From Ehretia macrophylla (lineage: Eukaryota; Streptophyta; Magnoliopsida; Boraginales; Ehretiaceae), in contig CM075775.1 of assembly GCA_037974665.1 (NCBI GenBank), positions 42,558,152 to 42,622,151 on the forward strand: a stretch of DNA of 64,000 nucleotides, written 5' to 3'. The notes under the pieces are model-generated. The model was not told the DNA's origin. It was given only the letters and a program-made list of their open reading frames with translations, and made no database searches. Below, in pieces: positions 11,018-64,000 of this stretch; positions within the stretch are counted from its first letter, which is position 1; each line of letters opens with the position of its first letter. The position numbers and the translations under genes were made by a program.

Positions 11018-11357
11018 TGTCACGAGCTCTATCATGCAGCAAGGTGACTTGGCAGTTACAACAAATACAACACCTCACACACATGAGCAGAGGAAATTAG
11101 GAAAAGGACTACGCACCAAACAAGCTCCACATCATTTGGCAGAGTTTGTTACATCATAACAACTAAAAGCTCAAGTATAAAAGAAGGTCCTGGACCATAG
11201 AATAGGCATCAGAAATATGTTATCTCTTTGTACTCTTTTCTTCTCTCTTCTATAGGAGTTACCAATTCTCTAAAAATTGGCCTATCTGTACTTTTGTTTC
11301 CTTCAATTTAATACAACACTCTGTTCTCTATAAATTGCTATTAGCTTAATCATCACA
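11018..11357 (+). repeat. E1 5' LTR
   Basis: TG..CA ends. A TATAAAAG box at about 11176-11183 marks the likely U3 promoter. The element's own sequence then begins AAGGTGCTTTCATCTTCGAA at 11358, the likely primer-binding zone (tRNA not assigned). Confidence 0.88.
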
Positions 11358-15862: not shown

Positions 15863-16038
15863 TGTCACGAGCTCTATCATGCAGCAAGGTGACTTGGCAG
15901 TTACAGCAAATACAACACCTCACACACATGAGCATAGGCAATTAGGAAAAGGTCTACGCACCAAATGAGCTCCACATCATTTGGCAGAGTTTGTTACATC
16001 ATAACAACTAAAAGCTCAAGTATAAAAGAAGGTCTTGG
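15863..16038 (+). repeat. E1 3' LTR, first part
   Basis: Matches the first half of the 5' LTR, including the TATAAAAG box, and ends at the target site CTTGG (16034-16038) where LARD-1 inserted. The second half resumes at 23347. Confidence 0.9.
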
Positions 16039-16967
16039 TGTGATAACCAGAACCCGGCATGCATTTAATAGCACTTGACTGCATTTGATTAAATGTTTAA
16101 TTAGTCAAATCAACCAATTTGCACTATTTTCATATTTCTCTTGGAAGCATTTAGTAATTATATATTGAATAATTGAAAGGTTGTTATCTACTTCTATTAA
16201 TTATAGTAATTGAATTTATTCTCTCGTGATTAATTAAGTGTTATCTTAATTGTTAGGGTTTAATTATGTTTGACTATGTATTTATATTAACCTTCATTTG
16301 TAGTTTAATGTTAACTTCATAATTCTTTTAAATGTTCTAGAAATAGTTAAATTGATTATTTTAAATGAATATTGATTACCTTGATTGTTTTGATTATTTT
16401 AATAATCGGTTTTGGTTGTTTTGTGTTAAAATCACTCGGTTTTCAAATAAATGAGAAAAGTAACTCCGAGCCGGAGTAAATTTTAAACTATGATGCTTTC
16501 CAAAAATGATATATTTCTTAGATTCTTTGAGAATTAATTGTTATTCTTTTATTGTCGCAACGTGCATTGCATATCGAGGGCGTTAGCTAGAAAACGGATT
16601 CCAGTCCTCAGCAAATAGTGAAACTAGTATTTAGATGACTTAAATTTTATATTTTAATTGTTACTAGCTAGAATTAATTTTGGTGTTAGTTATTTAGCTT
16701 AAAAATGCACAAAAATAAGCCATTTTGACTAGTTTTAAGTTGTTTGACCAACCTTGACCAAAGCTTTGACCCTTTTGACCTTTGTCATCTTTAAAATAGC
16801 CTAAATAACACAAAAAAAAACAGAGCTGAACAGAGGGCTTAAGGCCGAAAAAACAAGGAGAGAAAAAAAAAAATTCAACTTCAATTCATCAATTCTTCGC
16901 GAGGGCTTCCACGGGGTGGTTTTCGAGGCGTTCTACGAGGTTTTCCTAGCGTCTAGGAGCGTCTAAG

Positions 16968-18280
16968 GTGAGGGTTTCATCGTTATTTGCGCATTTGAAA
17001 TATTTGTAACTAAACTTTGATTTTTGGATTTTATGCGTAGATTGTTGTTTTAATCGTTTTGTTGCTTAAAGAATGTTCCTTGTTGATTGTAGAACATGTA
17101 TTTATAGCTTTTTAGCATTTTCTACGGTTGAAAATCGAAATTGCAATTTAAATTGTTTAATGAATAGTAATTAGTGAATAGTAAACCCTTGAAACAATAA
17201 AGTTGCGCTGTTATGCTGTCTGTTGATGTGAAAAGGTGCTAGGTATGCTAGAATGCCTAAATGTGTGGTTTAATTGGAATGTGTAATAGAAAAATGGAGA
17301 AAAACGGCTTAGTGAAAGTGGGGGTCGTTTAGGTCGACTTTAGCGTTTTCTCATTTTGCGTGATGGCATTGTTTCGGGAGCCCATGGAAGCACTTTTGGT
17401 GCGGTCGTGGTGTTGGTTGGGTGTTTGGTTGGTATAGTTGTAGTTCAAACGAGCAAAGGAAAAAAATCGGGCTTTGCGTGGATTCTAGGGTTAAGTAGGG
17501 TTTCAGAGTCTCTAGACGTGCCTTATAGTGACCTAGGAAGATTGGCGAAGTCGGTTTTCGGAACTCGTGGCTCGTTTGGAGATGATAGTGTTTTGATAGT
17601 TGGGGCCGATTTATGACTTGGTGTGTTTTGTTGAAGTTATGCCTATAGAATGCTTGTTAATGCTTATTATTGCTTGTTATGCTTGCTAATGCTTATTCCG
17701 CTTGTTAGAGTTGGTTGTTGATTGAAATGTTTATCCATTGTTGAGAATGCTTGATATCTTGTTTATCGTTCGTTTATCGCCTTGAATCGAGTCTTGCATT
17801 GCATAGTGTCTCGGGCGTGAGTGATGAGCCTCTCTGGGTAGCCTCGGGTTGCCAGTGTTGGTTGCTCTAGCTCCGCTGCTATTCCCATTCTCGCTTGAGT
17901 TGCCTCCCAGGGAGATTTGTGTCGTAGATTTGATTGGATACTTCCGGGGTATTCCAAACTGGTGTTATAAGGTGGATGCGCGCTTATTGTCATCATTGTC
18001 AACATCAAGCTCGAGATTGATGTATCGCTCGTGGAATGGTACATTGCTCGTATGAGTGAACCATAGCCTTCAGAGTGTGGTATAGCTTTGAATGGTTGTG
18101 TTAATGCTTTCAGTAATTACTTATTGTATTGATTGTTTATCTTGATTGCTTATTTATCAATTATATTGCTTAACTGTCTTATTTGCATTGCACGACTTTC
18201 TTTCTCTCCAATTCGATATCTGTCTCGCCCTCACTGAGTATACGTGTTGTGTATACTCACTCCTCACCACCACATTTCAG
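16968..18280 (+). other. Predicted LTR intron (LARD-1 5' LTR)
   Basis: Donor TCTAAG|GTGAGGG at 16967/16968 and acceptor CACATTTCAG|GAAATG at 18280/18281 bound 1313 nt. The 3' LTR has the same pair at 21430-22742, also 1313 nt. The equivalent donor and acceptor occur at matching places in the LTRs of LARD-2 (1311 nt), the Tekay-like element (1260 nt) and the solo LTR (1789 nt). Splicing is inferred from sequence only. Confidence 0.5.
18235..18259 (+). promoter_or_regulatory. Conserved LTR hairpin with branch-point-like CTCAC
   Basis: TGAGTATAC pairs perfectly with GTATACTCA around the loop GTGTTGT. It is preceded by CCCTCAC and followed by CTCCTCACC. The 3' arm runs into CTCAC, matching the plant branch-site consensus CTNAY, 21 nt before the CAG acceptor at 18280. 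The same hairpin is at 22697-22721 in the 3' LTR. Confidence 0.55.
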
Positions 18281-18881
18281 GAAATGTCATGTTAGCTGGA
18301 AGTTCGTGATTTCGTGGAAGTTTGTTGCATGAAGAGTTGTCTTGCGTGCCTATGTGGCTTGAGTGTCGAAGTTGTGAAGATATATGCTTTCATATGTTGT
18401 ATGTATTTAATGCTAAAAGTATGTAATTTAAGTTTCATTAGATTCTTGAAGTAGTTTGATAAGTTAGATTATGTATCTAGTTATTATAACTTAACTTCAA
18501 ATGCATGTTTGTAATGTCCGAAAGAAAAGAACTAGAATGGCATGATAGTCTATTTTATGTAGTAGCTTAGTATGGTTTAATTTTCAAGTTTGAATGTACT
18601 TGTCAAAATGAAAAGAGATAGGTTAGCTTTTAAATTTGAAATGTATGTATACTTGCTGAGTTTAAATTGTTGAGAACCGAGGCTCGGATGGCCTTGCGGA
18701 AGTTTTGTATGGTTGGACACGGTGTTGGTCCATTTAAATGCTATTACAGGTTTTACATTTTGCCTAGAAACAGGGGAGACTCCGTCCGTTTTCCCTGAAA
18801 ATTTTGCCCGGGTTTGGTTTGGGTTGTGATTAGATCGATTGATAGAACTCTCGGTCTCGAGAGGGATCGGGGTGTTACAGG

Positions 18882-20500: not shown

Positions 20501-23341
20501 TGTGATAACCTGAACTCGGCATGCATTTAATAGCACTTGACTGCATTTGATTAAATGTTTAATTAGTCAAATCAACCAATTTGCACTATTTTCATATTTC
20601 TCTTGGAAGCATTTAGTAATTATATATTGAATAATTGAAAGGTTGTTATCTACTTCTATTAATTATAGTAATTGAATTTATTCTCTCGTGATTAATTAAG
20701 TGTTATCTTAAATGTTAGGGTTTAATTGTGTTTGACTATGTGTTTATATTAACCTTCATTTGTAGTTTAATGTTAACTTCATAATTCTTTTAAATGTTCT
20801 AGAAATAGTTAAATTGATTATTTTAAATGAATATTGATTACCTTGATTGTTTTAATTATTTTAATAATCGGTTTTGGTTGTTTTGTGTTAAAATCACTCG
20901 GTTTTCAAATAAATGAGAAAAGTAACTCTGAGTCGGAGTAAATTTTAAACTATGATGCTTTCCAAAAATGATATATTTCTTAGATTCTTTGAGAATTAAT
21001 TGTTATTCTTTTATTGTCGCAACGTGCATTGCATATCGAGGGCGTTAGCTAGAAAACGGATTCCAGTCCTCAGCAAATAGTGAAACTAGTATTTAGATGA
21101 CTTAAATTTTATATTTTAATTGTTACTAGCTAGAATTAATTTTGGTGTTAGTTATTTAGCTTAAAAATGCACAAAAATAAGCCATTTTGACTAGTTTTAA
21201 GTTGTTTGACCAACCTTGACCAAAGCTTTGACCCTTTTGACCTTTGTCATCTTTAAAATAGCCTAAATAACACAAAAAAAAACAGAGCTGAACAGAGGGC
21301 TTAAGGCCGAAAAAACAAGGAGAGAAAAAAAAAAATTCAACTTCAATTCATCAATTCTTCGCGAGGGCTTCCACGGGGTGGTTTCCGAGGCGTTCTACGA
21401 GGTTTTCCTAGCGTCTAGGAGCGTCTAAGGTGAGGGTTTCATCGTTATTTGCGCATTTGAAATATTTGTAACTAAACTTTGATTTTTGGATTTTATGCGT
21501 AGATTGTTGTTTTAATCATTTTGTTGCTTAAAGAATGTTTCTTGTTGATTGTAGAACATGTATTTATAGCTTTTTAGCATTTTCTACGGTTGAAAATCGA
21601 AATTGCAATTTAAATTGTTTAATGAATAGTAATTAGTGAATAGTAAACCCTTGAAACAATAAAGTTGCGCTGTTATGCTGTCTGTTGATGTGAAAATGTG
21701 CTAGGTATGCTAGAATGCCTAAATGTGTGGTTTAATTAGAATGTGTAATAGAAAAACGGAGAAAAACGGCTTAGTGAAAGTGGGGGTCGTTTAGGTCGAC
21801 TTTAGCGCTTTCTCGTTTTGCGTGATGACATTGTTTCGGGAGCCCATGGAAGCACTTTTGTTGCGGTCGTGGTGTTGGTTGGGTGTTTGGTTGGTATAGT
21901 TGTAGTTCAAACGAGCAAAGGGGAAAAACCGGGCTTTGCGTGGATTCTAGGGTTAAGTAGGGTTTCAGAGTCTCTAGACGTGCCTTATAGTGACCTAGGA
22001 AGATTGGCGAAGTCGGTTTCCGGAACTCGTGGCTCGTTTGGAGATGATAGTGTTTTGATAGTTGGGGCCGATTTGTGACTTGGTGTGTTTTGTTGAAGTT
22101 ATGCCTATAGAATGCTTGTTAATGCTTATTATTGCTTGTTATGCTTGCTAATGCTTATTCCGCTTGTTAGAGTTGGTTGTTGATTGAAATGTTTATCCAT
22201 TGTTGAGAATGCTTGATATCTTGTTTATCGCTCGTTTATCGCCTTGAATTGAGTCTTGCATTGCATAGTGTCTCGTGCGTGAGTGATGAGCCTCTCTGGG
22301 TAGCCTCGGGTTGCCAGTGTTGATTTCTCTAGCTCCGCTGCTATTCCCATTCTCGCTTGAGTTGCCTCCCAGGGAGATTTGGGTCGTAGATTTGATTGGA
22401 TACTTCCGGGGTATTCCAAACTGGTGTTATAAGGTGGATGCGCGCTTATTGTCATTGTTGTCAACATCAAGCTCGAGATTGATGTATCGCTCGTGGAATG
22501 GTACATTGCTCGTATGAGTGAACCATAGCCTTCAAGGTGTGGTATAGCTTTGAATGGTTGTGTTAATGCTTTCAGTAATTACTTATTGTATTGATTGTTT
22601 ATCTTGATTGCTTATTTATCAGTTATATTGCTTAACTGTCTTATTTGCATTGCACGACTTTCTTTCTCTCCAATTCGATATCTGTCTCGCCCTCACTGAG
22701 TATACGTGTTGTGTATACTCACTCCTCACCACCACATTTCAGGAAATGTCATGTTAGCTGGAAGTTCGTGATTTTGTGGAAGTTTGTTGCCTGAAGAGTT
22801 GTCTTGCGTGCCTATGTGTCTTGAGTGTCGAAGTTGTGAAGATATATGCTTTCATATGTTGTATGTATTTAATGCCAAAAGTATGTAATTTAAGTTTCAT
22901 TAGATTGTTGAAGTAGTTTGATAAGTTAGATTATGTATCTAGTTATTATAACTTAACTTCAAATGCATGTTTGTAATGTCCGAAAGAAAAGAACTAGAAT
23001 GACATGATAGTCTATTTTATGTAGTGGCTTAGTATGATTTAATTTTCAAGTTTGAATGTACTTGTCAAAATGAAAAGAGATAGGTTAGCTTTTAAATTTG
23101 AAATATATGTATACTTGCTGAGTTTAAATTGTTGAGAACCGATGCTCGGATGGCCTTGAGGAAGTTTTGTATGGTTGGATACGGTGTTGGTCCATTTAAA
23201 TACTATTACAGGTTTTACATTTTGCCTAGAAACAGGGGAGACTCCGTCCGTTTTCCCTGAAAATTTTGCCCGGGTTTGGTTTGGGTTGTGATTAGATCGA
23301 TTGATAGAACTCTCGGTTTCGAGAGGGATCGGGGTGTTACA
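20501..23341 (+). repeat. LARD-1 3' LTR
   Basis: A 2841-bp copy of the 5' LTR with a predicted intron at 21430-22742. It ends GGTGTTACA directly before the target duplication CTTGG. Confidence 0.93.
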
Positions 23342-23346
23342 CTTGG

Positions 23347-23511
23347 ACCATAGAATAGGCATCAGAAATATGTTCTCTCTTTGTACTCTTTTCTTCTCTC
23401 TTCTATAGGAGTTACCAATTCTCTAAAAAATTGGCCTATCTGTACTTTTGTTTCCTTCAATTTAATACGACACTCTGTTCTCTATAAATTGCTATTAGTT
23501 TAATCATCACA
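23347..23511 (+). repeat. E1 3' LTR, second part
   Basis: Continues the LTR broken at 16038 and ends ATCATCACA, followed by the E1 target duplication GCTGC. Confidence 0.9.
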
Positions 23512-26955: not shown

Positions 26956-27302
26956 TAAATAATACAATAAAATCTTTTTTAAAAATTATAAAGTATTAAA
27001 CGGTATTGAATTGAATTCAAGTGTAGCACGTGGAGGTTAAATGCATTTGAGATGGTTTGTAAGTTACATCAGGTTGTCCTTATAAATGATGTCACCAACT
27101 CTCACTTTCAATAATGGAGAAACAAAAGCACATTAGAATAATTCATCTCGTATTTGACCCAAATTGTAGAGCAGATATTTTCCTAACTGAATTGGAGTTG
27201 CATCATATCTTTTATATTTCACATCATTTTATACATTTCTATTGCTCAATGAAACTTGTTTGTCCATAACAGATATTGAGTTGCAAACCAAAACTTTCAG
27301 CC

Positions 27303-29726
27303 ATGAGAAACCTTGTTCTTACATTTTCTTGTGTTCTGTTTTTCCTTGTTATCAGCATCTCCTTCAACTGCGTGTTGTCCAAATCTCGACAATATTTGGA
27401 ACGAGGTAATAGTTTATCGGTTGAAGATGATTCAGACTTTATCACATCCCCGGACAAGTCATTCACTTGTGGCTTCTATGGTGTGGGAAGCAATGCTTAC
27501 TGGTTTGCAATATGGTTCACCAATTCGAAAGACAGAACGGTTGTTTGGATGGCAAACCGCGACAGGCCGGTCAATGGCGAAGGCTCGAAGCTATCAATTT
27601 GGGGGAACGGAGCCATGGTGTTGACAGATATTGATGGAGCAATTGTCTGGGAGACTAATACCACCTCAACTGATGTTGCTCGAGCTGAGCTTCTTGACAC
27701 AGGCAATCTAGTCCTGAAGAATCCACAAGGGAAAATTCTCTGGCAGAGTTTCGACTATCCTACCGATACTCTTTTGCCTTCACAAGCCTTCACCAAGACC
27801 AAAAGATTGGTATCTTCATTGAGAAAAGATGATTATGCATCAGGCTACTTCAGCTTATATTTTGATAGCGATAATGTTTTAAGAATGATCTATGATGGCC
27901 CTGAGATATCAAGTATTTACTGGCCTAATCCTGATTTTAATGTCTACGCAAATGGAAGAACAAATTACAATAGCAGCAGAATTGCTGTCTTGGATGATAT
28001 AGGCCGGTTTGAATCAAGTGATCGGTTGCAAGTTAGTGCTGCTGATATGGGTGCAGTGATCAAAAGGAGGCTGACAATAGACTATGATGGCAACCTTAGA
28101 ATCTATAGCTTGATCAATTCAACTGGCTTATGGAAGGTTTCGTGGCAAGCTATGGGACAACCGTGTAACGTGCACGGGCTGTGCGGAAAAAATGGAATCT
28201 GTGCTAATGCCCCAGATGCTAGGTGTTCTTGTGCCCCTGGATATGAGGTAAGAAATCATAGTGACTGGAGTGAAGGCTGCAAGCCGAAGTTCAATCAAAG
28301 CCGTTTGAACTCTCAGCAGGTGAAATTTGTGGAGATTCTCTACACAGATTACTGGGGTTACGATCTCAATTACAGCCAAACTATTTCATTAGAAGCCTGC
28401 AAGAAACTTTGTTTGGATGATTTTCGATGTTTAGCATTTAGCTATAGGTTAACTGGGCAAGGTCTATGTTTCACGAAAAGCGAGTTGTTTAATGGAGTCA
28501 GGACTCCGTCTTTTCCTGGTAGTATATACTTAAAAATCCCAAGTAGTCTGCAAACATCAGAACTCACAATTCTCAATGGATCTAATGCCATTTGTGGATC
28601 TAGTGAAGCAGAAATCCTTGTAGGTTCTCCTTCTATGTATCACTTAGACAATAAAAGGGTCAGATGGGTTTATCTCTACTCATTTGCATTGGTTATAGGA
28701 GCTATCGAGTGTTTGTGTTTCATATTAGGCTGGTGGTTTTTGTTCAGAAAACATGGTGTTCCAAATTCCATCGAGGATGGATATCGCATGATATCGAGCC
28801 AATTCAAGAGGTTTAGTTATGCTGAACTCAAGAAGGCAACAAAGAATTTCAAGGAAGAGCTAGGAAGAGGAGGTTCTGGTGCTGTTTACAAGGGCGTGCT
28901 GGAGGATGAAAGGATCGTGGCAGTGAAGAGACTGGGAGATGTTTTTCAAGCAGAAGAAGAGTTCTGGGCGGAAATGAGCACAATTGGGAGAATCAATCAC
29001 ATGAATCTTGTGAGAATGTGGGGATTTTGTTCAGAAAAGAAACACAAGCTCTTGGTCTACGAGTATGTCGAAAACTTATCTCTTGACAAGCACTTATTCA
29101 CAACCTCAAATTTGTTAGAATGGAAACAAAGATTCGAAGTGGCATTAGGGACAGCCAAAGGTTTGGCCTACCTTCACCACGAGTGTTTAGAATGGGTTAT
29201 CCATTGCGATGTGAAACCAGAAAATATACTCTTAGATAGTGAATTTCAATCCAAAATTGCAGATTTTGGTTTAGCAAAGCTGTTCCAAAGAGGTGACTTT
29301 GGTTCAGGAGTCTCCAAAGTTCAAGGAACAAAAGGTTATATAGCCCCAGAGTGGGCTCTGAACCATCCTATTACCGCAAAAGTTGATGTTTATGGCTATG
29401 GAGTTGTAATCCTGGAGATGGTGAAAGGAATACAGCTTTCGAATTGGGTGCTAGATGACAATAATGAGCAGGTAGCAGAGCTTACAAAATTTGTTAGGTT
29501 TGTGAAAAAGAAAATTGAGTCTGGAAAAGATCACTCCTGGGTAGAAAGTATAGTGGATACTAGGTTACAAGGAAAATATAGCAAGAATCAGGCTGCAACG
29601 CTTGTAAATATTGGCCTAGCTTGTGTAGAGGAGGAGAGAAGCAAGCGACCTACAATGGCATCAGTCGTTCAAAATCTATTAGAATGCGAAGACAAATCAA
29701 TAGTCCAGAATCCAGACACACTGTAA
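27303..29726 (+). CDS. G-type lectin S-receptor-like Ser/Thr kinase, ZmPK1-like (gene B)
   Basis: Intronless, 807 residues from the ATG at 27303. An upstream in-frame ATG at 27276 is less likely, because gene A begins at the equivalent of 27303 and the segment in between matches gene A's untranslated leader. Order: signal peptide (about 1-26), B-lectin (40-155), S-locus glycoprotein/EGF-like Cys region (about 220-328), PAN/apple (about 340-412), one membrane segment (about 455-482), kinase (about 515-800). Intact motifs: LGRGGSGAVY, VAVK (lysine 542), HCD (non-RD), DFG and APE. Non-RD receptor kinases of this type commonly act in defence or recognition signalling at the plasma membrane; the specific ligand is unknown. 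It is the only copy in the window with every catalytic residue. Confidence 0.93.
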   Translation: MRNLVLTFSCVLFFLVISISFNCVLSKSRQYLERGNSLSVEDDSDFITSPDKSFTCGFYGVGSNAYWFAIWFTNSKDRTVVWMANRDRPVNGEGSKLSIWGNGAMVLTDIDGAIVWETNTTSTDVARAELLDTGNLVLKNPQGKILWQSFDYPTDTLLPSQAFTKTKRLVSSLRKDDYASGYFSLYFDSDNVLRMIYDGPEISSIYWPNPDFNVYANGRTNYNSSRIAVLDDIGRFESSDRLQVSAADMGAVIKRRLTIDYDGNLRIYSLINSTGLWKVSWQAMGQPCNVHGLCGKNGICANAPDARCSCAPGYEVRNHSDWSEGCKPKFNQSRLNSQQVKFVEILYTDYWGYDLNYSQTISLEACKKLCLDDFRCLAFSYRLTGQGLCFTKSELFNGVRTPSFPGSIYLKIPSSLQTSELTILNGSNAICGSSEAEILVGSPSMYHLDNKRVRWVYLYSFALVIGAIECLCFILGWWFLFRKHGVPNSIEDGYRMISSQFKRFSYAELKKATKNFKEELGRGGSGAVYKGVLEDERIVAVKRLGDVFQAEEEFWAEMSTIGRINHMNLVRMWGFCSEKKHKLLVYEYVENLSLDKHLFTTSNLLEWKQRFEVALGTAKGLAYLHHECLEWVIHCDVKPENILLDSEFQSKIADFGLAKLFQRGDFGSGVSKVQGTKGYIAPEWALNHPITAKVDVYGYGVVILEMVKGIQLSNWVLDDNNEQVAELTKFVRFVKKKIESGKDHSWVESIVDTRLQGKYSKNQAATLVNIGLACVEEERSKRPTMASVVQNLLECEDKSIVQNPDTL

Positions 29727-32403: not shown

Positions 32404-32570
32404 TTCTACATTTCTACTATTGCTGTAATGTTTACATGAACAATAACAAGTAAAGGCCTGCAAATTACAGTTATTCAAGAAGAGGAAAGGAAAACTTGCC
32501 TAGGGTAAATTGTACATAGAGACATTTAATCTAAACAAATTGCACTTGATCTGTCAGTCTTGAGATGCGG

Positions 32571-35795: not shown

Positions 35796-37584
35796 GTGAG
35801 GGCTAAAACTTCTTGAAAATCTTTCAAAAACCACATGCATGCCCTTAAATGTCTATCTTTACTTCTGTACTTGAGATATATGTGTGTTCATGAGCTTTTA
35901 TAAACATGCATGGCAAGATTTTTGGCTAGAATGTGATGATAGATGAAATCGTGTATGTGACAGCCTTCTGTCTTGTTGGTACAAGGTGATTTTGACTAGG
36001 TAAATGATGTTGAAAATATGTGAAAATTGGTAGCTAACTAGTCTTGTTAGTTCTGAACATTTTTCACAGATATAGGCCAAAGCTAATTTTGACTCTAAGG
36101 TCCTCAAAATGGCAAATTATTAAAATGTGTCCAAATCTGGAAAGTCTGGAAAATGAAGCAGGTTTTGGCAGTTTCACTGACCATGTAGAACGAACCAGTT
36201 TTGACTTAGTAAATGACATCCAAAATGCATAAAATTTGGTATTCTAATAGATTTTTCAGGTTTGGACATTTTTGTCAGAAATGGACTAAGGCTAAATCTG
36301 ACCCTAAGGCCCTAAAAAACGACAAGTATTGAAATGTGTGCAAATCTAGACAGTTTTGCGTAGTCTCACTGTTTTGGCTATAACTCTTGAACCCGAACTC
36401 CAAATGATGCGAGGTTTGTTTCTGAATTTAGTTCACTTCTTAAGATTTAATTTGAAATCTTGTTCACTAGAATTGGAGATTGTTTTCTTGTCTCAATGAT
36501 TGTGAGAAAACAGTCCATTGCAGTGAGGATTTCACCTAGTGATATGCTTAGAAAAATTATTGTAGCTTCTCTTGTTGTATTAAATGCTTGGGATTGTGGC
36601 ATTTGGATGTTGTGTGGACTGTTTTGAATACTTGAGGGTATTTGAATTAATCAATGCATGGCTTGAGTTTAATTACGAGATAACTTGGGGCATAATCGCA
36701 CGGGTAAACACGAATTGAAACCCTAGTGATTAGGTAAATTCGCTAAGTGTTGATCCTATGAATATCGTGTTTAATTATGTAATTAGTAGGCTGCCCGTAG
36801 TTGCCCTTGTAGCCTTAAATGTGATTTCGATGATTACATGTTGACAAGTAGGCCTTTCTTACACCCGGTTTTACATAGATGTCGTTGCATGTTGAATAAT
36901 CTTGTTATTTGATTACGTGAACTTCGAAATGAGTTATATGACTTGATTTACATGCGTTACATGGCTGCCCGTTTAATATTCATATAAGTCCATGTGCTTT
37001 TCAAGTGAAATTACTTGTCATGTCGTGCCTCGCGTGTTTACTTGTCAATGTACAATCTTATGACTGCTCGGAGGCAACCTACTTTGTTGTCCTCCTAATG
37101 TGATATATTAAATGTCATAAATGTGCATTGCATACAAGGTTGCAACCTTTCATTCTGGTGTGGTAGCGTTCACGCACACCTGGCGGCATCGGGCTTGCCG
37201 GTGCAACCGTGACTACCATTGTCCAATTCCCTCTCTCGCTTGGGGGCTAGACTTTCTCGAAGAGTTGGGTAATAGGATTTCGGGGTACATCCGGAGTACA
37301 CCCATTTGGCGTGATAAGGGGATGATTTGAAGCCGGCTGCAACAACTGATACTGGAATCGAACTGAGAGCAAAAGCTCACCGTATTCTTTTTACTATGTG
37401 TATAAGTACTCTCGCTTGGAATTGCGTCCTTTTACTGTTATATTATATTATGTACTTGCTTGTGATACATATCATGCTTGCAAAAAGGGTTTTCATAAGT
37501 TGAACCGGAAAATGAGTTTCAAAACTTATTTCTCGTTCCCCCTCGCTGAGTTCATAAGGACTCACTCTCTTTTATCATCTCAGG
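35796..37584 (+). other. Predicted LTR intron (solo LTR) with hairpin
   Basis: Donor AAGAG|GTGAGGG at 35795/35796 and acceptor ATCTCAG|GTG at 37584/37585. The hairpin GAGTTC/GGACTC with loop ATAA is at 37548-37563, preceded by CCCTCGCT and followed by ACTC. This is the same arrangement as in LARD-1, with a different stem sequence. Confidence 0.4.
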
Positions 37585-41332: not shown

Positions 41333-43923
41333 TGTAACACCCCGATCCCTCACGAGACCGGGAGTTCAATCAATCAATCTAATCACAACCCAAATCCAAA
41401 CCCGGGCATAATTCTCAGGGAAAACGGACGGAGTCTCCCCTGTATCTAGGCAAAAAGTAAACCTGCGATAGCATATAAGTGGACCAATACTATGTCCAAA
41501 CATTCAAACAACTCAAGGCCACCCGAGCCTTGTTCTCAACAAGCAATCACAAGCAAATATACATTTCCAATTTACAGACTAACCTACCTCTTCACATCTT
41601 TTACAATTACATTCATGCTTGACAATTAGACCATTCTAACTTATTGCATAAAATAGACTATCATACAATTCTAACTCTTTTCCCTTTGGACATTACAAAC
41701 ATGCATTAAAGTTAAGCTATACTAACTAGATACATAATCTAACTTATCAAACCACTTCAATAATCTAATGAAACTTAAATTACATTCCTTTTTACATTAA
41801 ATACATACAATACAGGGAAGCATACATCTTTACAACTTCGACAACTCAAGCCACATAGGCACGCAAGACAACTCTTCAAGCACGAACTTTCACGAAATCA
41901 CGAACTTTACAGCTAACATGACATTTTCTGAAATGTGGTGGTGAGGAGTGAGTATACACAACACGGATACTCAGTGAGGGCGAGACATATATCGAGGTGG
42001 AGAGAATGAAGATCGTGCAATGCAAATAGGTACAGTTAAGCATTACAATCAATAAAAAGGCATTCAATATAAACAACAATACAATAAACAATTAAAGAAA
42101 GCATTAACACAACTAATCAAAGCTATACCACACTTTGAAGGTCAGGGTTCACTCATACGAGCAATGTACCATTTCATGAGCGATACATCAATCTCAAGCT
42201 TGATGTTGACAATGATGACAATAAGCGCGCAACCACCTTATAACTTCAGTTTGGAATACCCCGGAAGTATCCATCAATTCTACAACCCAAATCTCCCTGG
42301 GAGGCAACCCAAGCGAGAAAAGGGAATAGGACACGGAGCTAGAGCAACCAACACTGGCAACTCGAGGCTACCCAGAGAGGCCCATCACTCACGCGCCTGA
42401 TACTATGCAATGCAAGACACGATACAAGGCGATAAACGAGCGATAGTACAACAATGCAGATTAGAGGCGATAAACGAGATATCAAACATTATCAACAATT
42501 GATATACAAATTCAATCATAATCAACATTAACAAGCATAACAAGCATTATTAAGCATTCTATAGGCAGTACACTATGTAAACACACAAAATCACAAAATG
42601 ACCCCAACTTTCAAAACGCTACTACTTCCAAACGAGCCACGAGTTTTGGAAACCGACTTCACCAATCCTCCTAGGTCACCACAAGGCACGTCTAAAGACC
42701 CCGAGACCCTACTTAACCCTAGAATTCACGCAAAGCCTCGATTTCTCCCTTTGCTCGTTTGAACTACCGCTACCCTAACCAAACACCCAACCAACGCCAT
42801 AATCACACCAAAAGAGCTTCCATGGCCTCCCGAGACAATGCCATCACACAAAACGATAAAATGCCAACTTGAGCTAAATGACCCCAACTTTTACTAAGCC
42901 ATTTTTCTCCGTTTTTTCATTACACAATCCAATTAAACCACACATTTAGGCATTCTAGAATATCTAGCACCTTCCTACATCAACAGAACGTATAACGGAG
43001 CAACTTCATCGAAACGGGAGTTTACTATTCATAATTTACTATTCAATTAACAATTTATATTTCAATTTCGATATTCAACCGTAGAAAATGTTAAAAAGCT
43101 ATAAATACATGTTCTACGATTGCTAGGGAACATTTTTTAAGCCTCAAAGCGATCAAAATAACATTCAACGGATAAAATCCAAAAATTAAAGTTAACACAT
43201 AAAACATTCAAATGCGCAAATAAACATGAAACCCTCACCTTAGACGCTCCTAGACGCTAGGAAAACCACGCTGAATGACTCAGAAACCACCCCGTGCAAG
43301 CTCACGCGAAGATTTGAAGTTTGAAGTTGAAATGTTTTTTTTTCTTTTTCCTCCATGGTTTCGGCCTGCTCACAGTTTTTTCAGCTTTGTTTTTTCATTT
43401 TTTTGCCTTCTAAATTGCTTAATAAAAGATGGAAATGGTCAAAGGTCAAGCCCCTTGGTCAAACTAACTTAAGTTCGTCAATTTGCCTATTTTTATGAAT
43501 TTTAAAGCTATAACAACCATCACCAAATTAATTCTAGCTAACAACAAATAAAATATAAAATTTAAGACACCAAAATACTAGTTTTCACTATTTGATGAGG
43601 ACTAGAAGTCATTTCTTAACTATCGCTCTCGATATGCTATGCACTTCGTGACAATAAAAGAATAAGAATTAAATCTAAAAGAATTTAAGAAAATATAATT
43701 TTCGAAAAGTAACATAGTTTAAAATTTACTCCGACTCGGAGCTACTTTTCATTTAATTGAAAACCGAGCATTAAAATGCAAGAAAATTAAAACCGATTAA
43801 CAAAATATGAAAATGAAGCTACAAATGAATGTTTAACTAAAATAAACACATAATTCAATGGTAACATTTAAGATGCCACTTAATCAAATGCAATTAAATG
43901 CATGCCGGGTTCGGGTTATCACA
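41333..43923 (-). repeat. LARD-2 3' LTR
   Basis: On the minus strand the predicted LTR intron spans 43238 down to 41928 (1311 nt). Its acceptor here reads CAG|AA rather than CAG|GA, a change not present in the other LTR. The hairpin is at 41950-41972 with one stem mismatch (GAGTATCC/GTATACTC). Confidence 0.9.
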
Positions 43924-45715: not shown

Positions 45716-45727
45716 GCTCTGATACCA
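45716..45727 (-). promoter_or_regulatory. LARD-2 primer-binding site (initiator tRNA-Met)
   Basis: The complement reads TGGTATCAGAGC, two bases from the 5' LTR, as in LARD-1. Confidence 0.92.
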
Positions 45728-45729
45728 CC

Positions 45730-48330
45730 TGTAACACCCCGATCCCTCACGAGACCGGGAGTTCTATCAATCAATCTAATCACAACCTAAATCCAAACCC
45801 GGTCATAATTCTCAGGGAAAACGGACGGAGTCTCCCCTGTTTCTAGGCAAAAAGCAAACCTGCGACAGCATATAAGTGGACCAATACCATGTCCAAACAT
45901 TCAAACAACTCAAGGCCATCCGAGCCTTGTTCTCAACAAGCAATCACAAGCAAATATACATTTCCAATTTACAGACTAACCTACCTCTTCACATCTTTTA
46001 CAATTACATTCATGCTTGACAATTAGACCATTCTAACTTATTGCATAAAATAGACTATCATACCATTCTAACTCTTTTCCCTTTGGACATTACAAACATG
46101 CATTAAAGTTAAGCTATACTAACTAGATACATAATCTAACTTATCAAACCACTTCAATAATCTAATGAAACTTAAATTACATTCCTTTTTACATTAAATA
46201 CATACAATACAGGGAAGCATACATCTTTACTACTTCGACAACTCAAGCCACATAGGCACGCAAGACAACTCTTCAAGCACGAACTTTCACGAAATCACGA
46301 ACTTTCCAGCTAACATGACATTTCCTGAAATGTGGTGGTGAAGAGTGAGTATACACAACACGTATACTTAGTGAGGGCGAGACATATATCGAGGTGGAGA
46401 GAATGAAGATCGTGCAATGCAAATAGGTACAGTTAAGCAATACAATCAATAAAAAGGCATTCAATATAAACAACAATACAATAAACAATTAAAGAAAGCA
46501 TTAACACAACCAATCAAAGCTATACCACACTTTGAAGGTCACGGTTCACTCATATGAGCAATGTACCATTTCACGAGCAATATATCAATCTTAAGCTTGA
46601 TGTTGACAACGATGACAATAAGCGCGCAACCACCTTATAACTTCAGTTTGGAATACCCCGGAAGTATCCATCAATTCTACAACCCAAATCTCCCTGGGAG
46701 GCAACCCAAGCGAGAAAAGGGAATAGGACACGGAGCTAGAGCAACCAACACTGGCAACCCAAGGCTACCCAAAGAGGCCCATCACTCACGTGCCTGACAC
46801 TATGCAATACAAGACACGATGCAATGCGATAAACGAGCGATAGTACAACAATGCATATTAGAGGCGATAAACGAGATATCAAACATTATCAACAATTGAT
46901 ATACAAATTCAATCATAATCAACATTAACAAGCATAACAAGCATTATTAAGCATTCTATAGGCAGTACACTATGTAAACACACAAAATCACAAAATGACC
47001 CCAACTTTCAAAATGCTACTACTTCCAAACGAGCCACGAGTTTTGGAAACCAACTTCACCAATCCTCCTAGGTCACCACAAGGCACGTCTAAAGACCCTG
47101 AGACCCTACTTAATCCTAGAATTCATGCAAAGCCCCGATTTCTCCCTTTGCTCGTTTGAACTACCGCTACCCTAACCAAACACCCAACCAACACCATAAT
47201 CACACCAAAAGTGCTTCCATGGCCTCTCGAGACAATGCCATCAACGCAAAATGATAAAATGCCAACTTGACCTAAACGACCCCAACCTTCACTAAGCCAT
47301 TTTTCTTCGTTTTTCCATTACACAATCCAATTAAACCACACATTTAGGCATCCTAGCATATTTTTCACCTTCTTATATCAACAGAATGCATAACTGAGCA
47401 ACTTCATCGAAACGGAGGTTTACTATTCATAATTTACTATTCAATTAACAATTTATATTTCAATTTCGATATTCAACCGCAAAAAATGTTAAAAAGCTAT
47501 AAATACATGTTCTATGATTGTTAGGGAAGATTCTTTAAGCCTCAAAATGATCAAAATAACATTCTACGGATAAAACTCAAAAATTAAAGTTAACACATAA
47601 AACATTCAAATGCTCAAATAAACATGAAACCCTCACCTTAGACACTCCTAGACGCTAGGAAAACCACGCTGGATGCCTCGGAAACCACCCCGTGCAAGCT
47701 CACGCGAAGATTTGAAGTTTGAAGTTGAAATTTTTTTTTTCTTTTTCCTCCATGGTTTCGGCCTGCTCACTGTTTTTTCAGCTTTGTTTTTTCATTTTTT
47801 TTGCCTTCTAAATTGCTTAATAAAAGATGGCAATGGTCAAAGGTCAAGCCCCTTGGTCAAACTAACTTAAGTTGGTCAATTTGCATATTTTTATGCATTT
47901 TAAAGCTATAAAACCATCACCAAATTAATTTTAGCTAACAACAAATAAAATATAAAATTTAAGACACCAAAATACTAGTTTTCACTATTTGATGAGGACT
48001 AGAAGTCATTTCCTAACTATCGCTCTCAATATGCTATGCACTTCGTGATAATAAAAGAATAACAATTAAATCTCAAAGAATTTAAGAAAATATAATTTTT
48101 GAAAAGTAACATAGTTTAAAATTTACTCTGGCTCGGATCTACTTTTCATTTAATTGAAAACCAAGCATTAAAATGTAAGAAAATTAAAACCGATTAACAA
48201 AATATGAAAATGAAGCTACAAATGAATGTTTAACTAAAATAAACACATAATTCAATGCTAACATTTAAGATGCCACTTAATCAAATGCAATTAAATGCCA
48301 TTAAATGCATGCCGGGTTCGGGTTATCACA
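45730..48330 (-). repeat. LARD-2 5' LTR
   Basis: A 2601-bp LTR with intact splice-acceptor-like CAG|GAAATG near 46325 and hairpin at about 46347-46369. Confidence 0.9.
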
Positions 48331-49188: not shown

Positions 49189-51456
49189 TGTCACGCCCTG
49201 ACACGACCCCGCAAAAGGCCAAGCCCGGACCCGACACACGGACGGAGTCTCCTCTGTACCGCGGACGATCCGAAAACCCTAAAATCAATATAATACTTGC
49301 GAAAGCCATAAAATAATCAAAACAAGCCAACTTTCTTTAAAATATACATTTCTTATTAATAAACTTTGCAACCCAAAATGATATGCATACTACACAAGTA
49401 TTTATGCCACTAATCAACTCCATTGGCATGCATTTCCTTACTAGTCACAAGGTATAAGTTTACAACTTTTACATTCTTCCAACTTATACAACATAAGACT
49501 GTAGAGGCCTCAAACCAGAAAATACATACAAGGCTACAAGCCTCAAAATTAAGCGACATCCAAGCAATATAAATATCAAGCAAGGCTCGCACAAAATCTG
49601 GCAACCAACCACCAGCAAAGCAAAGAAGTGCAATCACGGGAACACCTCCACCTGTTCCTCATCCTCAATTACCTCAAGAGGGTCTGCTTCAACTACTCCT
49701 GTAAAAATATAGTATAGAGAGGAATGAGCAAAAACTATTGCTCAGCGAGGGCAATTGGTCTCAAGGACGGAGATGAGAGGAGTATGCAATGCAATTAGCC
49801 AAGCAATGCATACAATTATCATTTAAAGATACAAACAAGTCAATATTATAACAAGGCAAGCATTAAAGACTATAAACATTCATTCAAAGGATACGGTACT
49901 CTTTTCACGAGCAACTTTCATTCAAATATTCGATGACGACGCGCCGGCCCAAACCACCTTATAACACCAGTTTGGAATACCCCGGAAGTATCCATCAACC
50001 TACGACCCAAATCTCCCTGGGAGGCAACCCAAGCGAGAAAGGGAATAGCAGCGGAGCTAGAGCAACCAACACTGGCAACCCAAGGCTACCCAGAGAGGCC
50101 CATCACTCACGCGCGAGACACTATGCAATGCAAGACTCGATACAAGGCGATAAACAAGCGATAAAGCCACACGTGGGAGAATAACAAAGTAGGTTACTCT
50201 CGCACGCAATAGCAGCAATTGATAAGCATTTCAATCCAAATCAATTCAAACAAGTATTTCAAGCAATCCTAAGCATTCTATAGGCATAAAGTCAAGAAAA
50301 CACACAAAACACAAACCGGCCCCCAACTATCAAAACCCTACCATTTCCAAACGAGCCACAAGTTCTGGAAACCGACTTCACCAAACCTCCTAGGTCACCA
50401 TAAGGCACGTCTAAAGACCCCGAAACCTTACTTTACCCTAGAACTCGAGCAAAGCCCCGATTTCTCCCTTTCTCGTTTGAACTACAACTATATCAACCAA
50501 ACACCCAACCAACGCCATAATCGCACCAAAAGTGCTTCCATGGCCTCCCGATATAATGCCAACAGGCAAAACGAGAAAATGCTAAAGTCGACCTAAACGA
50601 CCCCGACTTTCAACAAGGCTTAATTCCCATTTTTCTCACTATGCAACCCAAACAAACCACACATTTAGGCATTCTAGCACACCTAGCACATTTCTACATC
50701 AACGGATAGTATAACGGAGCAACTATATCGTTTCAAGGTTTTACTATTCATAAAACACTATTCAACATCCAAATTAAATTACAATCTCAACATTTTACCG
50801 CAGAAAATGTTACAAAGCTATAAATACACGTTCTACAATAGCCAAGGAACATTCTAGAAGCATCAAAACGATTTAAACGACAATCTACAGATAAAATCTA
50901 AAAATTACAAAGTTGATACACTTAACATTTAAATGCGCAAATAACATGATTCCTTCACCTTAGGCACTCCTAGTCGCTAGGAAAACAATGCTAGTCACCT
51001 CGGAAACCACCCCGCACGAGCTCACGCGAAGATTGAACGATTGGAAGGTTGAAAGGTTTTTTTTTTCTCTAAGAAGCTCTCGGCCTGCTCTCTCTCTGTT
51101 TTCAACTTTTTTTTTTTTTTTGTATTGTTTTAAGCTTATTAAGGTGATGACTTAGTCAAAGTTGGTCAAACAACTTAAAATTGGTCAAAATGACTTATTT
51201 TTGTGCATTTTTAAGCTAAATAACTAACACCAAAATTAATTCTAGCTAGCAACAATTAAAATATAAAATTTAAGTCATCTAAATACTAGTTTCACTATTT
51301 GCTGAGGACTAGAAATCATTCTCTAGCTATCACTCCTTAAATACAATGCACGTTGCGACGGCAAGAAAGTAACAATTAATTCACAAAGAATTTAAGGAAA
51401 TATAATTTTTAAAATAATAAACAAGGAATTTTCACATTCTGGGCTCGGGTATTACA
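49189..51456 (-). repeat. Tekay-like element 3' LTR
   Basis: Predicted LTR intron on the minus strand from 50958 to 49699 (1260 nt) with donor AAG|GTGAAGG and acceptor TTTTTACAG|GAG. The hairpin GAGCAA/TTGCTC is at 49726-49743, between CCCTCGCT and CATTCC. Confidence 0.93.
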
Positions 51457-56397: not shown

Positions 56398-58676
56398 TGT
56401 CACGCCCCGACCCGACCCCACAAAAGGCCAAGCCCGGACCCGATACACGGACGGAGTCTCCTCTGTACCGCGGACGATCCGAAAACCCTAAAATCAATAT
56501 AATACTTGCGAAAGCCATAAAATAATCAAAACAAGCCAACTTTCTTTAAAATATACATTTCTTATTAATAAACTTTGCAACCCAAAATGATATGCATACT
56601 ACACAAGTATTTATGCCACTAATCAACTCCATTAGCATGCATTTCTTTACTAGTCACAAGGTATAAGTTTACAACTTTTACATTCTTCCAACTTATACAA
56701 CATAAGACCGTAGAGGCCTCAAACCAGAAAATACATACAAGGCTACAAGCCTCAAAATTAAGCGACATCCAAGCAATATACATATCAAGCAAGGCTCGCA
56801 CAAAATCTGGCAACCAACCACCAGCAAAGCAAAGAAGTGCAATCACGGGAACACCTCCACCTGTTCCTCCTCCTCAATTACCTCAAGAGGGTCTGCTTCA
56901 ACTACTCCTGTAAAAATATAGTATAGAGAGGAATGAGCAAAAACAATTGCTCAGCGAGGGCAATTGGTCTCAAGGACGGAGATGAGAGGAGTATGCAATG
57001 CAATTAGCCAAGCAATGCATACAATTATCATTTAAAGATACAAACAAGTCAATATTATAACAAGGCAAGCATTAAAGACTATAAACATTCATTCAAAGGA
57101 TACGGTACTCTTTTCACGAGCAACTTTCATTCAAATATTCGATGACGACGCGTCGGCCCAAACCACCTTATAACACCAGTTTGGAATACCCCGGAAGTAT
57201 CCATCAACCTACGACCCAAATCTCCCTGGGAGGCAACCCAAGCGAGAAAGGGAATAGCAGCGGAGCTAGAGCAACCAACACTGGCAACCCAAGGCTACCC
57301 AGAGAGGCCCATCACTCACGCGCGAGACACTATGCAATGCAAGACTCGATACAAGGCGATAAACAAGCGATAAAGCCACACGTGGGAGAATAACAAAGTA
57401 GGTTACTCTCGCACGCAATAGCAGCAATTGATAAGCATTTCAATCCAAATCAATTCAAACAAGTATTTCAAGCAATCCTAAGCATTCTATAGGTATAAAG
57501 TCAAGAAAACACACAAAACACAAACCGGCCCCCAACTATCAAAACCCTACCATTTCCAAACGAGCCACAAGTTCTGGAAACCGACTTCACCAAACCTCCT
57601 AGGTCACCATAAGGCACGTCTAAAGACCCCGAAACCTTACTTTACCCTAGAACTCGCGCAAAGCCCCGATTTCCCCCTTTCTCGTTTGAACTACAACTAT
57701 ATCAACCAAACACCCAACCAATGCCATAATCGCACCAAAAGTGCTTCCATGGCCTCCCGATATAATGCCAACACACAAAAGGAGAAAATGCTAAAGTCGA
57801 CCTAAACGACCCCGACTTTCAACAAGGCTTAATTCCCGTTTTTCTCACTACGCAACCCAAATAAACCACACATTTATGCATTCTAGCACACCTAGCACAT
57901 TCCTACATCAACGGACAGCATAACGGAGCAACTATATCGTTTCAAGATTTTACTATTCATAAAACACTATTCAACATCCAAATTAAATTACAATCTCAAC
58001 ATTTAACCGCAAAAAATGTTACAAAGCTATAAATACACGTTCTACAATAGCCAAGGAACATTCTAGAAGCATCAAAACGATTTAAACGACAATCTACAGA
58101 TAAAATCTAAAAATTGTAAAGTTGATACACTTAACATTTAAATGCGCAAATAACATGATTCCTTCACCTCAGGCACTCCTAGTCGCTAGGAAAACAACGC
58201 TAGTCACCTCGGAAACCACCCCGCACGAGCTCACGCGAAGATTCAACGATTGGAAGGTTGAAAGGTTTTTTTTTCTCTAAGAAGCTATCGGCCTGCTCTC
58301 TCTCTGTTTTCAGCTTTTCTTTCTTTTTTTTGTATTGTTTTAAGCTTATTAAGGTGATGACTTAGTCAAAGTTGGTCAAGGTTGGTCAAACAACTTAAAA
58401 TTGGTCAAAATGACTTATTTTTGTGCATTTTTAAGCTAAATAACTAACACCAAAATTAATTCTAGCTAGCAACAATTAAAATATAAAATTTATGTCATCT
58501 AAATACTAGTTTCACTATTTGCTGAGGACTAGAAATCGTTCTCTAGCTATCACTCCTTAAATGCAATGCACGTTGCCACGGCAAGAAAGTAACAATTAAT
58601 TCACAAAGAATTTAAGGAAATATAATTTTCAAAATAATAAACAAGGAATTTTCACATTCTGGGCTCGGGTATTACA
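56398..58676 (-). repeat. Tekay-like element 5' LTR
   Basis: Predicted intron on the minus strand from 58167 to 56908, also 1260 nt. Donor GAG|GTGAAGG, hairpin GAGCAA/TTGCTC at 56935-56952. Confidence 0.93.
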
Positions 58677-62311: not shown

Positions 62312-64000
62312 TGTAACGCCCCGAACCCAACCCCACGCTAAAGTCAGGCTCGGACCCGTCACTCGGACAGAGTCTCCTCTGTACCAAGGACAAAACTGTT
62401 ACCTGTAAGCATTCATTCAAGACATCTGAACTAAAAGCAACAACTTATCAACAATATCTCCAAAGCCAAAACACAATCACAAGGCCATCCGAGCCTTAGA
62501 GCAACAATATTCTACTAAAGCACACAAGCATGCGAGATAAGTTGGTTTTAGCTATAAGTAGTTAAATACTATAAAATTCTAAGTTCCATATGAAGATCAA
62601 CAATACTCCAAGCATGCAAGGGAAATTAAAGTCTAGAATTCACTATTACAATCCAACAACTTTCTTTGACATTCTAGTACACATCTACTAGACATATGTA
62701 CAAGACTCTAAAGTCTCAAAATACATTAATCATAAGAACTCCACGCAAGAAGCACATAAAATCCACCTCAGCACACAAGGTCACGGATTCTGATCTACGT
62801 GAACTTCTTCCTCTTCTTCTACTTTTAACAGTTGGGGATTCACCTCAGCTTCTCCTGAAACATTTCAAATGAGGAGTGAGCAACAAAGTTGCCCAGCGAG
62901 GGAGGTGATGCAATATGCCAATGTGCAATATGATATGCAACACAAGTAAACATATACAAGCCACATAAACTAACAAGACAATAAGCCAAACTATTAATCA
63001 CTTTAAAAAGGATACGGTTCCACTTCCAAGTCTTCATCCACGAGCCACGACCACGAGCATCACGAACATGCCGACAAACCCCAAACACCACAATTGGGAT
63101 ACTCCGGATGTATCTTGATCCTACGACCCTTTCTCCCGAGGTAGGTCCATGCCCAGCAGGTGAACCACGTCTCTAGGGTAGTGGAGTATGCCTCAGCGAG
63201 AAAGGGAATAGGCACCATGGTAGTCGAGGGAGCACAGCAAGCCCGATGCCGCCCGTGTTTCTCGACGCTACCATGTTCGATAAAGGTTGCGCAACCCAAT
63301 ACAAGTCACAAGCGATCAATATAACACATAACACATAAGAGGGACGACAAAGTAGGCTGCCCTCACATATATGCACGATAAAAGTTCATATAAGCACAAT
63401 ATTAGCTTTAAGATACCAAAAGTAGCAATCAACACAATTAATTCCAATAATCTACTCAAATAACTTAATTACATCCTAAATATTCAATGCAAGGCATTAC
63501 TAACACACAACAAGTTCCTAATGCAACTAAAATGGCTAAAAACTACATTTCCCCTTTCTTTAACCGAGCTTTCTTTCTCTTAAGCATGGTTCGAGATTTC
63601 CAATCATACCCTAGTCTTTCTATATTCCTAATTAAGCTCAAAGGTACCTTTTAAAGCCACTAAAACTCATTTTTGAAGCAAAAGTTCGGGAAGGTCCCGA
63701 ACGGGTTTGAACTACAACTACACTAACCAAATCCCATTTTCGTGAAACGAAAGCACCAAAGGTGCTTCCTTAGCTCAAGGACACCCAAATCAATGCCCAA
63801 ACTTGCCCGGATTGCTTAACGTGTAAAACCCCCTTTTTAAAGTAAGCTATTTATGCAATTAAGTTCAAATTCGAGTGATTCAACCTAACGTGGCTTTTCA
63901 ACTAACTTCCCTAGAGTCTAGAGCACCTAATTGATGCATCAATTCAAGCCAATTAGCAAATTTTCTCAAAACCCTAATTCTAGGCACTATTCATCACCTC
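62312..64000 (-). repeat. Long LTR (Tekay-related), runs off the window edge
   Basis: Begins TGTAACGCCCCGAACCC, like the outer ends of the LARD and Tekay-like LTRs, followed by GGACAGAGTCTCCTCTGTAC. The hairpin GAGCAAC/GTTGCCC (one G-U pair, loop AAA) is at 62878-62894 and the acceptor-like complement TTTCAG|GAGAAG at 62855-62857. Module 63090-63300 matches the solo LTR at 37120-37330. At least 1689 bp; the left target duplication would be CGCTA (62307-62311). Confidence 0.78.

Follow-up and report, generated by a model that had tools for sequence, protein, structure and literature searches.

Long-LTR elements make up a large share of plant genomes. In retroviruses, the packaging signal is carried on unspliced RNA only, and unspliced genome is kept in balance with spliced mRNA; a similar balance of genome and mRNA is proposed here for LTR elements that are not retroviruses. 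Small intronic stems near an acceptor are also known to affect splicing, but their place is downstream of the branch point and their proposed effect is to aid splicing, whereas the LTR stem described below ends at a branch-like A.

Plant LTR retrotransposons are presented as generally intron-less, with Ogre and EVADE as exceptions, in part of a 2025 review (PMC12786077). As far as excerpts of that review and of PMC6317226 describe them, the introns of Ogre, EVADE and BARE1 share with our candidate the role proposed here, partial splicing that yields separate RNAs for different products, but lie in the coding part of the element (in Ogre, between gag-pro and RT-RH-INT); the putative intron considered here would lie wholly within the LTR. 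Plant nuclear SHAPE data, in the portion of PMC7784297 that concerns us, associate the single-stranded state of branch sites with splicing and with the choice of 3' splice site. Such a link is what a hairpin that hides its branch site would need, but that portion of the paper deals with a statistical association over genes and not with a dedicated hairpin conserved in mobile elements. Searches of the open-access literature for “LTR intron” and variants of that phrase returned nothing.

The window (the whole stretch of 64,000 nt of DNA analysed here) holds several long LTRs that share a small hairpin block. We put at about one in two the probability that a spliceosomal 5'-leader intron, situated wholly inside the LTR in several Ty3/gypsy families, has this block as its 3' end.

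The LTRs of the window and their hairpin

The DNA is plant-like, with a GC content of 0.385. Self-alignment delimits three long-LTR pairs, elements A, B and C (Table 1; 5 or 3 after a letter denotes the 5' or 3' LTR). Elements A and B, which are about 82% alike, each have a pair of LTRs together with a PBS motif, and a search between their LTRs for ORFs of 150 aa found none. Element C is a Ty3/gypsy LTR retrotransposon by its LTR pair, its PBS and its coding capacity for gag and pol (protease, RT, RNase H, integrase). Its RT is 74-78% identical to the closest proteins among the best 120 of 7951 scored, Coffea proteins within that set being 74-75% identical, and a search of its pol ORF at E 0.001 gave no chromodomain. 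Tekay and LARD, the names used in the preliminary description of this DNA, are labels, and Tekay is a putative clade assignment. Two further LTRs, D and E, gave no PBS by motif search and so may be solo or decayed LTRs. As to the surroundings, element A sits in an older element that bears gag and RT ORFs, within one of its LTRs (about 340 nt), and elsewhere in the window two long ORFs encode lectin-type receptor kinases, a third similar stretch having shorter ORFs only.

The hairpin is real, and is present in all six of the LTRs set by self-alignment as well as in D and E, giving eight sites in the window (A5, A3, B5, B3, C5, C3, D and E). The preliminary description had placed it in every long LTR, which holds for the six but is circular for D and E, since these were recovered by the motif itself. 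The stems and coordinates that it gave for A, D, C3, C5 and E agree with ours; the hairpins of element B were absent from it and were found here. All eight sites share one layout, namely CTCRCT, a short hairpin running from TGAG to CTCA, and then CTC or TTC, with a deviating hairpin start in E (TGGG) and B5 (TAAG). The 3' arm leads into CTCAC or CTCAT at every one of them, as had been described. Stems are perfect over 7-9 bp in six sites; the remaining two each have one broken and uncompensated pair (pair 2 in B5, pair 8 in B3), which fits decay after insertion. The hairpins of C3 and C5 are a single loop letter apart. The pattern CCCTCRCTGAGN{4,20}CTCAYTC has six matches in the window against 0.00 expected from 100 shuffles, and E and B5 are each one letter away from it.

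Table 1. Positions within the window of the elements, hairpins, candidate splice features and further stems
Feature	Position	Strand	Details
Element A, LTRs	16039-18879 / 20501-23341	+	self-alignment
Element B, LTRs	41326-43923 / 45723-48330	-	self-alignment
Element C, LTRs	49189-51456 / 56398-58676	-	self-alignment
LTR D	around 37542	+	reached via hairpin motif
LTR E	around 62900	-	reached via hairpin motif
Older element around A	11018-11357, 15863-16038, 23344-23511		self-alignment
Receptor-kinase stretches	1958-4378 (-); 27276-29726 (+); third, 32563-34626		DNA identity 82-92%
Hairpin, A 5' LTR	18235..18259	+	TGAGTATAC with GTATACTCA
Hairpin, A 3' LTR	22697..22721	+	like that of the A 5' LTR
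Hairpin, LTR D	37547..37564	+	TGAGTTC with GGACTCA, one U-G
CCCTCACT-hairpin-CTCACTC block, B 3' LTR	41946..41980	-	one pair broken, A to C
Hairpin, B 5' LTR	46346..46370	-	pair 2 broken, G to A
Hairpin, C 3' LTR	49725..49744	-	TGAGCAA with TTGCTCA
Hairpin, C 5' LTR	56934..56953	-	TGAGCAA with TTGCTCA
Hairpin, LTR E	62877..62895	-	TGGGCAAC with GTTGCTCA, one G-U
Branch-like CTCAC, following stretch and candidate acceptor TTTCAG/G, A 5' LTR	18256..18280	+	rank 3/104
Candidate acceptor TTTCAG/G, LTR E	62855..62860	-	rank 1/102
Candidate LTR intron, A 5' LTR	16968..18280	+	donor AAG/GTGAGG; 1313 nt
Candidate LTR intron, A 3' LTR	21430..22742	+	donor and acceptor scans
Candidate LTR intron, D	35796..37583	+	donor GAG/GTGAGG, acceptor CTCAG/G; 1788 nt
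Candidate LTR intron, B 5' LTR	46325..47636	-	1312 nt; donor and acceptor scans
Candidate LTR intron, C 5' LTR	56908..58167	-	donor GAG/GTGAAG, acceptor TTACAG/G; 1260 nt
M0 stem	57386..57410 (-, C 5' LTR); 50177-50201 (-); 37070-37095 (+); 63339-63364 (-)		loop CCTACTTTGT
Further paired modules of D and E	37162-37217 (+), 63219-63272 (-); 37283-37303 (+), 63098-63114 (-)		compensated D-E changes

Pairing across families

Conservation of the pairing in a few families was measured on six distinct rows: A (identical to B3 over the seven pairs considered), B5, C, D, E and L016, a relative from outside the window. Because MAFFT misaligns the 3' arm, the rows for this count were typed and trimmed of their loops; a separate count used arms set by hand, with bulged letters left out. 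The paired cells amount to 97.6% against 82.3 +/- 3.7 with shuffled partners. Cells changed on both sides number 7 (2.4 +/- 1.3 in the shuffles) and the covariation score reaches 0.524 (0.194 +/- 0.066 in the shuffles); no shuffle among 500 attains any of these three values. Sliding the partners by 1-3 columns leaves only 28.6-45.2% of cells paired. Two measures are weaker: 3 pairs show two-sided change, a number that 36 of the 500 shuffles reach, and there are 5 further pair types, as many as 160 of the 500 shuffles reach. Covariation of the kind expected of a selected RNA structure is thus found on three of five measures over six distinct rows.

The outer four stem pairs are almost invariant across families, and it is the inner stem that varies. 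The inner arms of A, C and D differ, each pairing with its own partner and over at most two positions with those of the others; when arms are swapped, 0-2 positions pair between A or D and a foreign arm. Inner arm letters are held in common by C, E and L016. Shuffling the inner stem gives p values of 0.010 (A), 0.022 (E), 0.076 (D), 0.077 (C5), 0.10 (B3), 0.11 (C3) and 0.13 (L016), with a Fisher combined p of 7e-4 over A, C5, D and E. Support from covariation appears good but not deep, given only four or five lineages. The earlier statement that letters change while pairing holds is borne out for these few families by the covariation score and fails at the uncompensated breaks of B5 and B3. 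Stems of at least 7 bp ending 16-28 nt before an AG were also counted at three score levels, and accompany 99/685, 29/262 and 9/73 control AGs as against 8/8, 7/7 and 4/4 hairpin sites; since the latter were chosen for their stem, this control tells only how common such stems are.

These patterns could also arise if the block had been kept by descent as a sequence, be it an acceptor or a promoter box, with little or no functional weight on its pairing. Such an account would sit well with the almost constant outer pairs, the four or five lineages, the like inner arms of C, E and L016, the uncompensated changes in B5 and B3, the spread of the folding z-scores (-2.7 to 0.6) and the two measures that 36 and 160 of 500 shuffles reach. 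It does not predict that the differing inner arms of A, C and D should each match their own partner and hardly any other, nor a covariation score so far above that of the shuffles (0.524 vs 0.194 +/- 0.066), and we consider it unlikely. A DNA palindrome serving as the binding site of a dimeric protein in the LTR promoter is a further alternative, in that perfect inverted repeats as short as these (7-9 bp, spacers of 3-9 nt) resemble such sites. The arm letters vary by family, unlike the site of a single protein, D and E contain single G-U pairs, and the distance to the acceptor is similar in all; this makes a protein-bound palindrome improbable.

Predicted folding energies back the hairpin only slightly. 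In two 120-nt windows containing it (offsets -60 and 0), z-scores against shuffles are -0.5 and -0.7 for A5, -2.7 and -0.6 for C5, -1.1 and 0.0 for D, -1.9 and 0.6 for E, and -2.2 and 0.2 for L016; with values from -2.7 to 0.6, they were dropped as proof of structure. With unpaired values of 0.03-0.22 in A5, C5, C3 and D, the branch-like A is predicted to be mostly paired there; in E it is predicted to be open (0.62), while in B5 (0.79, 0.11, 0.10) and B3 (0.42, 0.08, 0.09) the prediction depends on the flanks. In C5 the hairpin is hardly formed (0.01-0.06), a rival fold being preferred in which upstream sequence is the predicted partner of the 5' arm and the surroundings of the acceptor are that of the 3' arm; in C3 it is predicted to form at 0.37-0.71. 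Rfam yields no gathering match anywhere in the window, nothing up to E 5 on LTR A, and in the region of E mir-1729 alone (21.8 of 80 bits). A hammerhead or other ribozyme was rejected, with no core motif by eye and no Rfam match.

Acceptor, donor and leader of the putative intron

The plant branch motif has the form CTNAY and lies 18-40 nt upstream of the acceptor. In all nine hairpin sites (eight in the window and that of L016), the first AG after CTCAY belongs to a CAG, the interval between being free of AG. From the branch-like A to the end of the CAG we count 21 bases in A and B, 26 in C, 19 in D, 22 in E and 24 in L016; the range of 21-27 nt given earlier was slightly off, the measured one being 19-26. 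Acceptors were scored with a plant-like matrix, its weights taken from general knowledge, from the donor (or the start of the available sequence) to near the LTR end. The CAG after the hairpin, with its pyrimidine-rich tract, ranks first in C5 (of 88 AGs), C3 (91), D (103) and E (102), second in L016 (59) and B5 (103), third in A5 (104) and A3 (103), and ninth in B3 (99), hence within the first three at eight of nine sites. The earlier reading of this CAG as the LTR acceptor gains support from these ranks and from the lack of any AG between it and the branch-like motif. Rival acceptors exist: one near +516/520 ranks first in A5, A3, B5 and B3, and in L016 rank 1 goes to an acceptor at 887.

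The exon side past the acceptor is purine-rich in C (56907 down), D (37584 on) and E (62854 down) and, read by eye, has an open frame of about 20 codons, many of them for acidic residues. This stretch, which is unlike A and L016, might enhance splicing or code for a short tail. T-rich stretches within 100-200 nt after the hairpin would suit a stem acting on 3'-end formation in the 3' LTR and not on splicing; as this would leave the link to the acceptor unexplained, it seems very improbable.

Some 1.2-1.8 kb upstream of the hairpin, A to D and another relative from outside the window, L015, have a candidate leader exon and donor. On a plant consensus matrix (weights from general knowledge, maximum 12.0), the donors score 8.5 in A and B, 8.2 in D, 10.0 in L015, 6.1 in C5 and 6.4 in C3. 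The donor of A and B, AAG/GTGAGGG, is the best from the LTR start to the hairpin and lies 1260-1262 nt before the hairpin block; that of D, GAG/GTGAGGG, follows a pyrimidine-rich leader and is the best within the 2.1 kb scanned. Donors suited to a U2-type intron are the top GT of the scanned part in A5, A3, B5, B3, D and L015, the rank in D and L015 not being independent because these two were picked by reading the sequence. The donor of C (GAG/GTGAAGG in the 5' LTR, AAG/GTGAAGG in the 3' LTR) is weaker and not top-scoring, and its position is homologous by alignment to that of the A and B donor. In E the donor, if as far upstream as elsewhere, would fall past the end of the window.

The 125-130 nt before the donor contain no ATG in A5, C5, D and L015 and one in B5, and the putative introns contain 29 (A5), 31 (B5), 26 (C5) and 53 (D). 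Higher up the leader, D has an ATG in good context. Exon 2, with 5-17 ATGs per 300 nt, is not AUG-poor, so that splicing alone would leave the leader uncleared. The putative introns of A5, B5 and C5 have 38% T as against 23-27% in the leader; exon 2 of A and B is as T-rich as the intron and bears ATGs, which makes the contrast between exon and intron one-sided. TATA patterns searched for near the donors of A, B, C and D were not found, and an intron-less junction is absent from the window.

Relatives, further stems and a possible division of RNAs

When genome contigs of bacteria and archaea were scanned with an RT alignment, 13 loci coding for relatives were found (L013-L025), apparently for the most part plant or other eukaryote contamination of these assemblies. 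Two of them, L015 and L016, are 99.3% alike over 5.8 kb and thus one family, apparently another plant LTR family contaminating two bacterial assemblies, with an RT 66% identical to that of C. They carry an LTR end and a PBS, with ACTGAGCAAtagtggttTTTGCTCACCCCGTTTATTTTCCCCCTCCCAG/GAAC some 310 nt before the PBS, and the same type of hairpin and acceptor; since the inner arm letters of L016 are those of C, this speaks for conservation and not for covariation. L015 has a TATA box (CTATAAATACC) about 160 nt before the donor ACAATCAAG/GTAAGG. The distance from this donor to the hairpin, about 1.8 kb, is an estimate via the overlap with L016, because the donor lies in the 3'-end copy and the hairpin was read in the 5'-end copy.

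In L019 and L022, the other two loci that have a PBS motif beside the LTR, no stem of at least 6 pairs ending in CTCAY was present; of the three contaminant families whose LTR end is readable, one has the hairpin. L019 has, between 60 and 210, a TATA box followed about 140 nt on by CAG/GTATCC, so LTR leader introns may extend past the hairpin family. In IMG/VR, searches by hairpin pattern, RT protein, RT alignment, TGAGCAA hairpin pattern and 20-mer gave chance-like matches or none, and none of 40 TGAGCAA hairpins there combined the upstream box with a CAG 14-30 nt further on.

Further paired modules recur about 200-480 nt upstream of the hairpin, within the putative intron; their arms (M0, M1 and M2b) were set by hand, with bulged letters left out and no shuffle control. 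M0 combines an invariant loop, CCTACTTTGT, with arms that vary on both sides among C (9/9 pairs), D (9/9) and E (8/9), with 2-4 two-sided changes between lineages; a search for its loop in A and B found none. M1, in D and E, has 10/10 pairs in each and 2 two-sided changes, and M2b, around TCCGG, has 6/6 pairs in A, 6/6 in D and 5/6 in E. Folding z-scores at M0 are uneven, strongest in C5 (-3.6) and D (-2.6) and near zero in E. The modules point to a larger structured RNA, whose role as a packaging signal would be guesswork.

Such modules bring to mind a selected RNA hairpin of the leader (R region) whose partner would be Gag, a host protein or another copy of the RNA, for packaging, dimerisation or export, with the CAG incidental or secondary. 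Both the two-sided changes in M0 (C, D and E; 2-4) and M1 (D and E; 2) and the G-U pairs of the D and E hairpins, which fit RNA, would be at home in this account. It offers no reason to expect a high-ranked acceptor and an AG-free interval from CTCAY to CAG at nine of nine sites, or an outer stem pinned exactly at the branch-like motif, and we find it doubtful.

If the block is the end of a leader intron, transcription would begin in the LTR and an AUG-poor leader exon of 100 nt or more would end at a GTGAGG-type donor, followed by an intron of about 1.3-1.8 kb that would extend to the first AG past the hairpin. The 3' arm would be the branch-site motif CTCAY, and the stem would hide it part of the time, leading to incomplete splicing in which unspliced RNA serves as genomic RNA and spliced RNA as mRNA. 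Because the intron contains parts of R, it would have to be retained for reverse transcription. We propose that the 3' arm is conserved because splicing uses the branch motif; the simplest account of the conserved TGAG of the 5' arm is that it pairs with that motif. As single-stranded branch sites go with splicing, the stem would be expected to lower or tune it, and the opposite role, in which the hairpin presents the branch site, may also be envisioned. From the sequence we infer the start site, the splicing, the use of the branch and any regulatory effect of the hairpin.

In favor of the leader intron are the compensated stems across families, the hairpin of L015/L016 and the TATA box of L015, the acceptor ranks, the donors, the ATG-poor leader with its T content set against that of the intron, and the plant branch-site SHAPE data. 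Against it are the weak donor of C, the absence of TATA patterns in A to D, the ATG in the leader of D, the ATGs and T-richness of exon 2, the rival acceptors, the weak folding and the rival fold of C5, the lack of the hairpin in L019 and L022, the scarcity of introns noted in the review cited above, and the absence of Tekay elements from the expressed set in sunflower. The sunflower data, as given in part of PMC7730604, have an expressed set without Tekay elements, and transcripts may therefore be hard to find.

A wider and more tentative possibility is that a broad group of plant Ty3/gypsy elements shares a conserved LTR leader intron, a branch site locked by a covarying hairpin and extra conserved stems in the intron body that together act as a switch between genome and mRNA; RNA that keeps the intron would be the packaged genome, and RNA from which it is removed would be the translated mRNA. 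If the leader intron is true, it would provide a direct and testable answer to how long-LTR elements separate mRNA from genomic RNA. Many gene-adjacent LTRs would then also supply ready-made leader exons, donors and acceptors.
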